Positions 3,584-14,284 of a stretch of DNA of 29,680 nucleotides are shown here, in pieces. Source of the DNA: a virus; IMG/VR virus record IMGVR_UViG_3300046012_000620, positions 1 to 29,680 of that record. The stretch is one strand, 5' to 3'. Position numbers and translations under genes: made by a program. A model generated the notes under the pieces. That model was not told where the DNA came from. It saw only the letters and a program-made list of their open reading frames with translations, and made no database searches. How positions within the stretch are numbered: the stretch's first letter is position 1; each line of letters opens with the position of its first letter.

Positions 3584-3615
3584 TTTCCTGAAATAAACGT
3601 CTCGAGCCGTAGGCG

Positions 3616-3828
3616 TTAAAGTGACGGCCTTTGTCTTTGCTCATTTGACCAATTGTAATTTCTTATATGAGACACATTCTTATATTCATTGCAAAAATCA
3701 CATACGCTTCTATGAAATGTTAAATGATGTCCAAAAGGGAAGTGTTTACCATTTTGATAGGCACAATCATTACAAATAAATTGTTTGGGTTCATTCTTTG
3801 GAAGAATTTCGTTATCTAACCAACTCAT
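3616..3828 (-). CDS. Small zinc-ribbon protein
   Basis: The 70-residue product has two Cys pairs with the right spacing for one zinc site: C19-x-x-C22 and C43-x-x-C46. A His-rich loop lies between them (HFPFGHHLTFHRS). This is a zinc-ribbon or rubredoxin-knuckle arrangement of unknown function. The ATG at 3828 lies only 5 bases beyond the A/T tract of a terminator-like hairpin (3834-3855), and no Shine-Dalgarno sequence is visible. It may be translated from a leaderless or very short leader mRNA, or depend on readthrough from the upstream minus-strand genes. It converges on the plus-strand operon. Confidence 0.6.
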   Translation of the reverse strand: MSWLDNEILPKNEPKQFICNDCAYQNGKHFPFGHHLTFHRSVCDFCNEYKNVSHIRNYNWSNEQRQRPSL

Positions 3829-6006: not shown

Positions 6007-6441
6007 ATGCCAGATCAAGAGGTAAAACAATCTCAAAAAATAGATTTAGGCGGAAGACCTGAAAAATATACTAAAGAAGTTATTGATGATTTAGCCGATG
6101 AATTTCTTGAATGGTTGAAAAAACCAAATAATGTTTGGTTCAAAGATTTTTGTTTAGATAAAAATATAGATCCTAGATTAATGACAGATTGGGCTAAAAA
6201 ATCTCACAAGTTTTCCGAAGCTTACATTTTAGCACAGGCTAGACAAGAGTCAAAATTGATGAATGGAGGGCTTTTTAACAAGATGAATGCTGGTATTGTC
6301 AAGTTCGCTTTAGTCAATAATCATGGATACAATGACAAGAAAGAAGTTAATGTTACTTCAAACGGAAATCCTCTTCCAGACTGGGCAAAACAAGCTGAAG
6401 GTCAATCTAAAGATTTAGTGAATGAGCTTATCAAAGAATAA
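6007..6441 (+). CDS. Terminase small subunit
   Basis: The 144-residue product begins with a short polar tail, then 'GGRPEKYTKEVIDDLADEFLEWL' and 'FKDFCLDKNIDPRLMTDWAK', a helix-turn-helix pattern typical of terminase small subunits of the P22/phi29-unrelated podovirus type. This is followed by a helical section (SEAYILAQARQESKLMNGGL) and a C-terminal tail that would contact the large subunit. These proteins recognise the packaging site and regulate the motor. A Shine-Dalgarno sequence (AGAGG) precedes the ATG. The gene overlaps the start of TerL by 20 bases, the usual operon arrangement. Confidence 0.8.
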   Translation: MPDQEVKQSQKIDLGGRPEKYTKEVIDDLADEFLEWLKKPNNVWFKDFCLDKNIDPRLMTDWAKKSHKFSEAYILAQARQESKLMNGGLFNKMNAGIVKFALVNNHGYNDKKEVNVTSNGNPLPDWAKQAEGQSKDLVNELIKE

Positions 6442-8749
6442 TCCTCTGATGGATCCTTATTGGAGGATCAATAACCTTTACCATATAGTTGATAAGCAAG
6501 GTCGAAAGATCATTTTCAAGCTTAACTGGGCTCAACAAGAACTTTATGAGAACGTCTGGTATTGCAATGTTATTCTTAAGGCTAGGCAGTTAGGTATATC
6601 CACATATATTTGCTTACTTTTCTTAGATAGATGTCTATTTAATTCAAATGTTTCAGCTGGGATTATTGCTCATACTGTAGAAGATGCTCAGGCTTTATTT
6701 AGACGTGTTAAGATTGCTTATGACAGTCTCCCTGATCAATTGAAAGACATAATTACGGCTGAAAATGATACCGCTCAAATGCTCAAATTTTCTAATGGTT
6801 CATCAATCCGTGTGGGTACATCATTACGCTCTTCTACATTTCAATACCTTCACATCTCAGAGTTTGGAAAGATTTGCGCAAAATACCCAGATAAGGCAAC
6901 CGAGATTATCACCGGCTCTCTCAATACCGTTGCTCCCGGTCAATATGTTTTTATTGAATCTACTGCTGAGGGTAGAGATGGATATTTCTATGATATTTGT
7001 AAAAGAGCGCAAAACGATAAAAATACTAAACGGGATCTTTCAAAGTTAGACTTCAGATTTCATTTCTTTCCATGGTATAACGAACCATCTTATAGAATTG
7101 GGTCAGTTTTTCCGGTTACAGATGAAATGCAACAATATTTTGATCACCTTTTTGCTTTAGGTATTAAATTAGATGAAGAACAGAAGAATTGGTACATAGC
7201 TAGAGAACAGACACAGAAAGAAGATATGAGGAGAGAATACCCATCTACTCCAGAAGAATCCTGGGAAGTGTCTAATGAGGGTCTTTATTATGGTAAGTAC
7301 ATGACTCTAGTTAGGTCGGAGAAACGTATAGGTAACATACCCTACAACGAATCACTTTTGGTCCATACTGCATGGGACATTGGCTACAATGATTCGAATA
7401 GCATTTGGTTTTTCCAAATATCAGGTAAAGAAATCTGGCTGATCGATTATGAAGAAGGTAGTGGGGAATCTTTATCTTATTGGATCAATGTTCTTAAGAA
7501 GAAAGACTACACTTATGGAAAACACATTGCTCCACATGATGTTATGGTCCATGAATATAGTTCTGGAATGACACGCCAAGCTTCTGCTAGGAAACTGGGA
7601 ATTAACTTTATACCTACTCAAAAAGTTGAGATCATTCCAGGCATAGATCAAGTCAGAAGTATTCTGAATCGCTGTTGGTTTGATGAAAGAAAATGTGCTA
7701 AAGGGATCAAAGCTTTAGATGCCTATAAGAAGGACTGGGATGAACGTCATGCATGTTGGAGATCTTCTCCCTTACATAATTGGGCCTCGCATGGATGTTT
7801 CACAGGTGAAACTTTGATATTGACGCGTACCGGAATGCGTCCCATAATGTTAATAGAAAAAGATGAAGAAGTTTTAACATTATTAGGCTGGATAAAATGC
7901 AACAAAGCGACATTAACGAAACGAAATGCAACTCTTGTGGCTGTTCAATTCCAAGACAATACAAAGGTAAGATGTACTCTGGATCATTTATTCTTGACGG
8001 AGAGCGGGTGGATATCTGCAAAAAACCTAGAGAAGGATATGAAGATCCAATTATCCTCGATATACTTACAACATATTTCAGGGGGCATTTATACAGAGTC
8101 TGGCCTCAACAAAGATATTTCACGAAAGGCGATTCCTACCTTCATAGAGATGTTTGGTCAGATGCTTTTGGTGAAATCCCTAAGGGATGTCATATACACC
8201 ACAAAGACAATGATATCAAAAATAATAGACTTTATAATCTTGAATGCTTGCCAGCCAAAATTCATCTTAGTTACAAACAGCCTAATTCCAAAGGATTATC
8301 AGATAAAGCTAGACAAAGAGCAACTGAATGGCACCAATCAGATGAGGGTAGAGAATGGCATCGAAGAAAAGCAATTAGCGAGAAAAACTGGAAGAAATGG
8401 AAAAGAGAAAAAAGACAATGTGTTCACTGCAATAAGGAATTTGATTGTCTCATTAGGAAAAATGGAGCATCTCAAAAATATTGCACAGCAAATTGTAAAT
8501 CAGCCAATCGTAGAGTCCGTGCAATTTCTAAATGAAAAAGAGGATGTATATTGTATAAATGTTCCAGACATTTCCCATTTTTCATTATCAAATGGAGCGA
8601 TAGTGCATAATTCAGATGCTTTTCGAACCCTTGCAACAGGTTTAAGTTTTGTAGAAAATCAACATTCTTTATCCGCAGCAGTTCAAGAAACTCAAAGGCA
8701 AAGAGATTACATTCAATCCAGATTTAATCCTCAAGCACGCAGTTTTTAG
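6422..8749 (+). CDS. terL: Terminase large subunit, intein-containing
   Basis: The 775-codon frame encodes a phage packaging ATPase/nuclease interrupted by an intein. ATPase motifs: deviant Walker A KARQLGIST (53-61), Walker B YLHISEFG with E147, and coupling motif ESTAEG (179-184). RNase-H-like nuclease motifs: AWDIGYND with D319, HIAPHD with D373, and, after the intein, SDAFR with D732. Residues 459-730 are the intein; removing it joins ...WASHG to SDAFRTL and leaves a 503-residue protein, the usual TerL length. The intein lies exactly at the third nuclease motif, a typical insertion point because precise splicing is needed for activity. It overlaps TerS. A second in-frame ATG at 6449 could be the true start, since neither has a clear Shine-Dalgarno sequence. 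Confidence 0.92.
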   Translation: MSLSKNNPLMDPYWRINNLYHIVDKQGRKIIFKLNWAQQELYENVWYCNVILKARQLGISTYICLLFLDRCLFNSNVSAGIIAHTVEDAQALFRRVKIAYDSLPDQLKDIITAENDTAQMLKFSNGSSIRVGTSLRSSTFQYLHISEFGKICAKYPDKATEIITGSLNTVAPGQYVFIESTAEGRDGYFYDICKRAQNDKNTKRDLSKLDFRFHFFPWYNEPSYRIGSVFPVTDEMQQYFDHLFALGIKLDEEQKNWYIAREQTQKEDMRREYPSTPEESWEVSNEGLYYGKYMTLVRSEKRIGNIPYNESLLVHTAWDIGYNDSNSIWFFQISGKEIWLIDYEEGSGESLSYWINVLKKKDYTYGKHIAPHDVMVHEYSSGMTRQASARKLGINFIPTQKVEIIPGIDQVRSILNRCWFDERKCAKGIKALDAYKKDWDERHACWRSSPLHNWASHGCFTGETLILTRTGMRPIMLIEKDEEVLTLLGWIKCNKATLTKRNATLVAVQFQDNTKVRCTLDHLFLTESGWISAKNLEKDMKIQLSSIYLQHISGGIYTESGLNKDISRKAIPTFIEMFGQMLLVKSLRDVIYTTKTMISKIIDFIILNACQPKFILVTNSLIPKDYQIKLDKEQLNGTNQMRVENGIEEKQLARKTGRNGKEKKDNVFTAIRNLIVSLGKMEHLKNIAQQIVNQPIVESVQFLNEKEDVYCINVPDISHFSLSNGAIVHNSDAFRTLATGLSFVENQHSLSAAVQETQRQRDYIQSRFNPQARSF
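7796..8611 (+). mobile_element. Intein (Hint domain) within TerL
   Basis: The 272-codon insert starts with Cys459 in block A (CFTGETLILT). It has a block B RCTLDHLFLT (517-526, H522) followed by GWISAKNLEKDMKI, and ends in blocks F/G (EDVYCINVPDISHFSLSNG...IVHN, 707-730). The terminal His-Asn and the following Ser731 complete a class 1 splicing set: Cys1, block B His, penultimate His, Asn and Ser+1. No LAGLIDADG motifs are present in this frame. The roughly 150 codons between the block B region and block F look low in information and coincide with an HNH endonuclease read in another frame. All splicing residues are present, so the intein is probably active. Confidence 0.9.
7972..8535 (+). CDS. 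HNH homing endonuclease, out of frame inside the TerL intein
   Basis: This frame is shifted relative to terL and lies wholly within the intein. The 187-residue product has the region YFRGHLYRVW...LHRDVW, the HNH core (H76, H77, D79, N85, N89: HHKDNDIKNNRLYNL), and a C-terminal zinc finger with C150, C153, C171 and C175. These are features of phage HNH homing endonucleases with a C-terminal Cys4 finger. I choose 7972 because AAAGG sits 4 bases upstream; an ATG at 7897 would extend it by 25 residues. It ends at its own TGA, so it is read as a free protein and not as part of the intein. It would mobilise the intein by cutting intein-less terL genes. Confidence 0.85.
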   Translation: MYSGSFILDGERVDICKKPREGYEDPIILDILTTYFRGHLYRVWPQQRYFTKGDSYLHRDVWSDAFGEIPKGCHIHHKDNDIKNNRLYNLECLPAKIHLSYKQPNSKGLSDKARQRATEWHQSDEGREWHRRKAISEKNWKKWKREKRQCVHCNKEFDCLIRKNGASQKYCTANCKSANRRVRAISK

Positions 8750-13055: not shown

Positions 13056-13333
13056 ATGTCTATTACGACAACTGGTAATTTAGGACCAATGATTCTTCAG
13101 TCGCTTGCGCCTGCAATGCTCTATGTTCCTACCCCTACCATGAATTACATCACAGTCTGCGATAAAGTTAGTATGCCAGCTAATGGTGGTACTACTTGCA
13201 GATTTATGCGTCCACGCGCATTACAACCGCCTACCGTACAGTTAGGTAATTCAGGGATTGACCCCCCAGCACAAGTGCCACAAAGAGACATCATTGATGC
13301 TCAAATGGCATTTTTTGGAACAGGTTGCATCAT
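13056..13333 (+). CDS. Major capsid protein, N4-gp56 family, exon 1
   Basis: This is the 5' part of the capsid gene, 92 codons plus two bases, with GAGG five bases before the ATG. It encodes MSITTTGNLGPMILQSLAPA, a region NGGTTCRFMRPRAL, and a final FFGTGCII. This is the start of an N4-gp56-type capsid protein, in which a 'YGTG...I-N-E-Q-V' strand normally follows. Read without splicing, the frame would continue into the intron and stop at 13385 after an unrelated tail (GKSSLIDLELAA). Joining to exon 2 at 13582 gives one 981-base, 326-residue frame, in the size range of this family. The protein forms the icosahedral shell. It is preceded by the scaffold gene. Confidence 0.85.
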
Positions 13334-13581
13334 AAAGTTTGTGATGGGTAAATCTTCTCTGATAGACTTGGAACTCGCAGCGTAAAGACGGCGACAACAA
13401 GGCGGAACCCAATAGGGACCGTGAACGTAGTAAGCGAGAAGACACAGGAAACTGTGATGCGGTACTCTGGACATTGCAGTAATGCAGTGAGGGAAGTGCA
13501 ATAGGCTTCCTCGCCAAACCGGCGAAAACCATGTTTTTTTTAGTGTTTTCGCCAGTTTGGTCATAAAAGTAACAGAAAAAG
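13334..13581 (+). ncRNA. Group I intron in the major capsid gene
   Basis: A 248-base, ORF-less insert. P1: exon CATCAT (13328-13333) pairs with intron GTGATG (13341-13346) over a 7-base loop, with the conserved U.G wobble at the 5' splice site; the intron ends in G at 13581. Excision rejoins the capsid frame as ...GCII-NEQVILQ. Further stems: CGG-AA-CCC-AATA-GGG-A-CCG, which has the P4/J4-5/P5 shape; CACAG-GAAA-CTGTG with a GNRA loop; CATTGCA-GTAA-TGCAGTG; and a long 6+9-bp hairpin at 13514-13560 with eight T in its loop (P9-like). I have not assigned P3 and P7. Lack of an internal endonuclease means mobility would need help from elsewhere. Confidence 0.85.
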
Positions 13582-14284
13582 AAACGAACAAGTAATTTTG
13601 CAAGATCAGGAAGGTGTTTTAGCCTGGGTTTCTGAACGTCTTGCAGTAGCGATGCGTCAAGCAGAGGATTTGATCCTCCGTGATTATATCGTTTCAGCAG
13701 CATCAGAAATTAATGCTGGTGGTGGCTCAAATGGTTTTAATCCAACTAACCTTGGAATTAGCGATTTTTCTTTGGTAGCTACTACACTCGATACCAACAA
13801 TGCCTACAAATTCATGTCAGGTATTGAAGGTATGGATAGATTCGGTACAGGCCCTGTTCGTTCAGCATATTTCATGCTGTCATCAACAGAGCTACAATCA
13901 GACTTTGATTCATTAGTAGGAAGTGGTTTCCTTTCACAATGGAACTACCCAACTAATGCAAGTTGTCTTCCATCTGAGTATGGTTCGGTTTATAACATCC
14001 GTATCCTTACTTCATCGGAAGCACCTGTAGCTAGAAATGCTGCAACTAATAGCAGTGGAACTACCAACGACGTTTATTACAATACTGTCTTAGGTAAACA
14101 GGCTATTACACATATTAATCAGGACGGCTTTAGCATGAACCTGATTTATCGTGACCCATATTATTCTGGTATGCTCGCTCAAAATGCTACTTTGGCAGTT
14201 AAATTTGCTCAAGCGCAAGCGATCACACAGGATACTGCAATCAGAAACCTCTTAAGCACACGCTTAAGCAATTTAGGAGTGTAG
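13582..14284 (+). CDS. Major capsid protein, N4-gp56 family, exon 2
   Basis: This is the 3' part of the capsid gene, beginning inside the codon split by the intron. It encodes NEQVILQDQEGVLAWVSERL, AVAMRQAEDLILRDYIVSAA and SEINAGGGSNGF. The 'VLQDQ...ERL-x-x-A-x-R-Q-A-E-D' segment is the hallmark of the N4-gp56 capsid family. The C-terminal region runs through DGFSMNLIYRDPYYSGMLAQ and ends RLSNLGV. A frame starting at the TTG at 13598 can be read alone, but it would lack the first strand and the Asn-Glu-Gln that complete the conserved block, so splicing is the better reading. The next gene starts one base after its stop. Confidence 0.88.

Follow-up and report, generated by a model that had tools for sequence, protein, structure and literature searches.

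A predicted small group I intron in a phage capsid gene carries an in-frame, putatively degron-like LAA tail

The window analysed here, a metagenomic virus contig of 29,680 nucleotides (IMG/VR record IMGVR_UViG_3300046012_000620, taken at its full length), contains a terminase gene and, further downstream, a major capsid gene that is split in two. The terminase gene (6422-8749) harbors an intein (PF14890, residues 494-730, E 3e-11), and an HNH endonuclease reading frame (7897-8535; HNH_3, E 3e-13) lies wholly within the intein in a different frame; the endonuclease of the terminase intein may be coded in this overlapping frame. At the capsid gene, the product of the 3' exon matches the major head protein phrog_1357 (E 3e-12). 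The frame opened at 13056 terminates at a stop codon at 13383-13385, and the downstream capsid frame resumes at 13582 (Table 1). The original prediction had placed the break at 13334, had anticipated that removal of 248 bases would restore a conserved segment within a single 326-codon frame, and had noted that the capsid would be truncated without splicing. The reading frames and the comparison with uninterrupted relatives bear this out.

For this comparison, both exons were aligned with the best 80 of 203 IMG/VR matches to the 3' part of the capsid gene. In most of these 80 relatives, 15 nt separate the aligned exon ends, compared with 263 nt in the window, so the insert comprises exactly 248 nt, from 13334 to 13581. 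Its excision yields ...GTGC-ATC-AT/A-AAC-GAA-CAA (GTGCIINEQV; slash, insertion point). The capsid reading frame is uninterrupted in 59 genes of an unbiased set, with an empty site at the insertion point that reads TGYATCATH/AACGAACAAG or near it, as exemplified by TGTATCATT/AACGAACAAG in relative L001. A nucleotide search of phages with the window capsid gene gave no match, and hits in bacterial genomes fell into bins of conflicting phyla (Bacteroidales, Chlamydiia, Patescibacteria, Pseudomonadota, Nitrospiraceae). Inteins and programmed ribosome bypass likewise restore an interrupted frame, yet either in place of RNA splicing has a negligible probability here: an insert of 248 nt, which is not a multiple of three and has an in-frame stop inside, excludes an intein, and a bypass element would not be expected to possess the covarying ribozyme core and internal guide sequence (IGS) pairing described below.

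As a check on its group I interpretation, the original prediction proposed a covariance search with Rfam model RF00028. This search returned no match in the window, even below the gathering threshold at E <=10, nor did it recover seven homologous loci at E <=1, which suggests that RF00028 is blind to this intron subfamily. Related capsid genes carry inserts at other codons, two of which, in L022 and L052, match RF00028 at 85 and 75 bits. Since RF00028 gave no match, we built our own covariance model, termed R1, which captures the nested part of the structure and derives from 22 short homologous introns with the window excluded. R1 matches the window insert at 129 bits (E 1.1e-30), the runner-up place in the window scoring 10 bits, and also finds the RF00028-positive introns of L022 and L052 (45 and 43 bits). 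The classical elements P3, P4, P5, P6, P7 (as a pseudoknot), P8 and P9 were placed on the 22-homologue alignment. With the P7 pseudoknot included, 97.5% of the cells in this alignment are paired, the covariation score is 0.499 as against 0.176 after shuffling and at most 0.12 with partners slid, and 25 of 36 pairs show double changes. P7 itself is 100% paired with double changes in four of its six pairs, P3 covaries with 96.8% of cells paired, and every core helix covaries except P4, which is nearly invariant. A DNA pattern of the P3-P4 region taken from the inserts retrieved at least 119 stretches in viral contigs.

Table 1. Features of the interrupted capsid gene and its insert (positions in the window)
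Feature	Position	Strand	Basis
5' exon, major capsid gene (codons 1-92 and two bases of codon 93)	13056-13333	+	94-100% identity to N-terminus of closest uninterrupted relatives
Predicted group I intron, 248 nt, ORF-less apart from exon-fused tail	13334-13581	+	exact excess over uninterrupted relatives; R1 match at 13349-13493
P1: exon CATCAU (13328-13333) with IGS GUGAUG (13341-13346), U.G at 5' splice site	13328-13346	+	sequence; homologues
Exon-frame extension KFVMGKSSLIDLELAA, codons 94-109 and stop	13335-13385	+	translation; AA or xA tails recur in intron family
P10 strand GUUU; partner is 3' exon AAAC (13582-13585), 4 bp	13337-13340	+	sequence inspection
P3: 13353-13359 with 13436-13442, enclosing P4-P5-P6	13353-13442	+	R1 alignment; covariation
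P7, guanosine-site helix, pseudoknot with P3, bulged	13425-13468	+	covariation in 22 homologues
P7 pairs A13425-T13468, G13427-C13467, A13429-T13466, G13430-C13465, T13431-A13464, A13432-T13463			
P8 hairpin, CACAG-GAAA-CUGUG, GNRA loop GAAA	13443-13456	+	family alignment, R1, predicted fold
P9 hairpin, GNRA loop GUAA at 13479-13482	13472-13489	+	family alignment, R1, predicted fold
P9.1 (about 13491-13512) and long P9.2 hairpin (13514-13561)	13491-13561	+	predicted fold
Omega-G, final intron base	13581	+	sequence; family ends GTAACAG..G
3' exon, major capsid gene (end of codon 93 to stop)	13582-14284	+	restored 326-codon frame

The individual hallmarks named in the original prediction are present as well. 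These include the CATCAT/GTGATG pairing with U.G at the splice site and the terminal G; the insert is also small and lacks an endonuclease, as noted there. At the P1 position of the homologues, a predicted IGS of 5-9 bp fits each intron's own, different exon. The predicted fold of the insert reaches -81.9 kcal/mol (z = -3.96; 0 of 200 shuffles equally good) and contains P8, P9, the P4-P5-P6 stack and the long 3' hairpin; it thereby recovers the previously noted P4-P5 element, GNRA hairpin and 3' hairpin and adds P9 as a second GNRA hairpin. Together, the R1 match, the covarying helices, P1, P10, omega-G and the empty site support the group I interpretation, and we consider the insert almost certainly a group I intron. 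On sequence evidence it is a small, endonuclease-free member of a phage-borne subfamily overlooked by Rfam. The metagenomic origin of the contig and the silence of RF00028 might instead point to a decayed intron, or an insertion of another kind, that has lost splicing and leaves a capsid pseudogene, or to a contig misassembly. We regard this as very improbable, since the core helices, P1, P10 and omega-G are all intact, both exons are likewise intact and 94-100% similar to their closest relatives, and homologous introns occur in many independent contigs. Many of these homologues also contain short open reading frames of roughly 30-60 codons, whose ATG directly follows the GGGGCAAG-like strand of P6 (L100, L101, L111, L120, L124 and L162).

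When the exon frame is read into the insert, it continues for 16 codons, ends in ...SSLIDLELAA and is closed by a stop; the LAA-stop occupies 13374-13385. The unspliced product would consequently be a 109-residue capsid fragment with the C-terminus LELAA, a free end that resembles SsrA/ClpX-type degrons (LAA or a close variant). SsrA tags usually end in LAA, with LVA as a used variant (PMC9382460). The tail is encoded in cis by the intron rather than added by tmRNA and is not an SsrA tag proper. The P5 core sequence partly dictates the Leu of this tail, while the AA-stop is free. Neither the in-frame ...LELAA tail nor its recurrence across the intron family was part of the original prediction, and searches of a library of open-access papers turned up no report of intron-encoded degradation tags.

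To describe this recurrence, we defined a class A set of 60 introns in which the exon frame stays open through the predicted 5' splice site. The set retains two exceptions, L160 and L184, which resemble endonuclease reading frames rather than host exons (L160 was tested and L184 clusters with it), and L095, whose frame is probably wrong. The exon frame ends in AA in 41 of the 60 introns and in A in 50, whereas in their two alternative frames AA closes 1 of 119 readings (p 1.5e-24 for AA, uncorrected for kinship); many of these introns are related by descent and most lie in one capsid superfamily, so this and the following p-values overstate independence. Among large open reading frames of the same loci, 39 of 2104 have an AA end. 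The tails read LELLAA, SVIAA, SVMVA, ENYLLAA, SEKLAA, RLVA and others, each followed by a stop. The pattern used to collect the introns ends at the tail's Leu codon, and Leu is therefore partly fixed by data selection, in contrast to the AA-stop. Tailed introns also occur in tape measure genes (7), in the anaerobic ribonucleotide reductase gene nrdD (2) and in a P22-like coat gene, and a second group I subfamily shows a weaker effect (AA in 6 of 31 exon frames vs 0 of 60 other frames). About one sixth of the class A introns have no Ala tail, among them L106 and L151 (..QVN), L154 (..TFS) and L015 (..LAI), and the same is true of related introns in two named phages, in Twort TerL (..INLF) and Desulfovibrio phage 7757 (..WAR).

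The in-frame stop could also be read more simply. In many group I introns, in-frame stops are viewed as stalling ribosomes so that the intron can fold (PMC3984707); here, the stop of an ordinary group I intron would only bar ribosomes from the ribozyme core, and LAA would be a by-product of P5 RNA, many of the P5 tags indeed lying within a hairpin such as CUGC-NUAA-GCAG. However, AA tags are found in P5 (32) but also in P6/P6a (9) and, in other cases, ahead of the core, within 5' extensions or the mini-introns described below. Codon usage varies too, with GCA, GCT, GCC and GCG all serving for Ala and all three stops occurring. Ala-Ala-stop is present in the core of 44 of 60 introns read in frame, as against 9 of 41 introns whose longest reading frame ends before the core, and some of these nine are mis-assigned. 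A further contrast comes from intron position within the same capsid gene: early introns of the same family, which truncate the protein at 36 residues or fewer, have an A end in 0 of 6 distinct cases, whereas truncation at 88 residues or more is accompanied by A in 15 of 16 and by AA in 12 of 16 (Fisher, p 9e-5 for A and 3e-3 for AA). Locus L022 holds both kinds, a tailless intron at codon 36 and one with KLAA-stop at codon 90. The recurrence of AA thus depends on position, frame and length, and we consider the by-product explanation unlikely. The controls on frame, fragment length and unread cores lead us to reject a frame-independent RNA motif as the source of the tails.

Twenty related capsid genes have, upstream of a full intron, a coreless element of 30-79 nt (for example L033 3679-3719, L310 about 1440-1471 and L110 about 3599-3628). 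These mini-introns, whose boundaries were chosen by hand, end in G in 20 of 20 cases, and all can form a P1 of 6-9 bp with U.G and usually P10. Their P1/P10 guide covaries with the exon sequence, and for each element between 0 and 4.8% of shuffled controls pair equally well. Mini-introns carry or create an Ala tail. The 59 uninterrupted capsid genes and the window yielded none, and every gene of the unbiased set with such an element contains a full group I intron as well. At L083, a full intron occupies the same site with the same guide as a mini-intron. As judged from these pairings and their distribution, mini-introns are most readily understood as core-deleted introns that would be spliced by the ribozyme of their neighbor. 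More broadly, this phage group has an intron hotspot in its capsid gene, with insertions at many codons (L142, L312, L182, L083, L311), and the L142 capsid gene has up to about five interruptions.

Compared with known bacterial and phage group I introns (RF00028; Hausner et al. 2014, PMC3984707), the window intron shares P1 with U.G, the P3-P9 core, the P7 pseudoknot, P10 and omega-G, and it likewise interrupts an essential phage gene within a conserved region. Unlike these, it is RF00028-silent, measures 248 nt, has no visible P2 and no endonuclease reading frame, and its exon-frame extension ends in a degron-like LAA. The terL intron of Staphylococcus phage Twort (MT151386), annotated as spliced with terL joined from three exons, is a weak R1 match (20.8 bits, E 4e-4) that shares P3-P5 sequence; it differs in its predicted endonuclease and in its unspliced tail RTINLF-stop, which lacks AA. 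In Podoviridae sp. ctn9Y15 (MW202674), an intron of the same family (R1, 107.8 bits) splits a coat gene that is annotated as P22-type and as two genes rather than as intron-containing (L316 2691-4206). The first part of this coat gene ends in AYFLLAA-stop, and the tag lies just before the core instead of in P5 as in the window. With SsrA (tmRNA) tags and ClpXP degrons, the window tail has the C-terminal LAA in common, some homologous introns having LVA. Unlike an SsrA tag, this putative degron is encoded in cis by the mRNA's own intron and would need no ribosome stalling. The likeness is to the usual LAA ending of SsrA tags, and the protease and tmRNA tag of the host may differ.

In bacteria, translation takes place during transcription. 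An intron in the gene of an abundant structural protein therefore risks a flood of assembly-poisoning fragments. We propose that the window intron combines self-splicing with a conditional C-terminal degron in its 5' part, a reading that we consider quite probable. Splicing would start with an exogenous G attacking at P1's U.G pair, on the 3' side of CATCAU, and the exons would be joined after omega-G with the assistance of P10, forming the junction CATCAT/AAACGAAC in the 326-codon capsid mRNA. A ribosome running ahead of splicing would instead read through P3 and P4 into P5 and stop directly after ...LELAA. ClpXP or a comparable protease would be expected to degrade the resulting fragment, with its SsrA-like end, and so to spare capsid assembly from poisoning. 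The intron-encoded degron would in this way dispose of capsid fragments arising from unspliced mRNA, with the presumed toxicity of truncated capsid as the reason for its existence. Such a role would exceed the accepted ribosome-stalling view of in-frame stops and would still be compatible with it. Whether phage group I introns generally bear cis-encoded degrons that mimic SsrA, some of them supplied by mini-introns that need a neighbor's ribozyme core, is an extension for which we see even chances.

The group I model of Rfam overlooks an intron subfamily that is widespread in phages, and capsid genes split by such introns may consequently be misannotated as gene pairs, ctn9Y15 being one such case. 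A cis-encoded degron, if true, would constitute a second, protein-level safeguard beyond ribosome stalling and could help explain the persistence of introns in capsid and tail genes.
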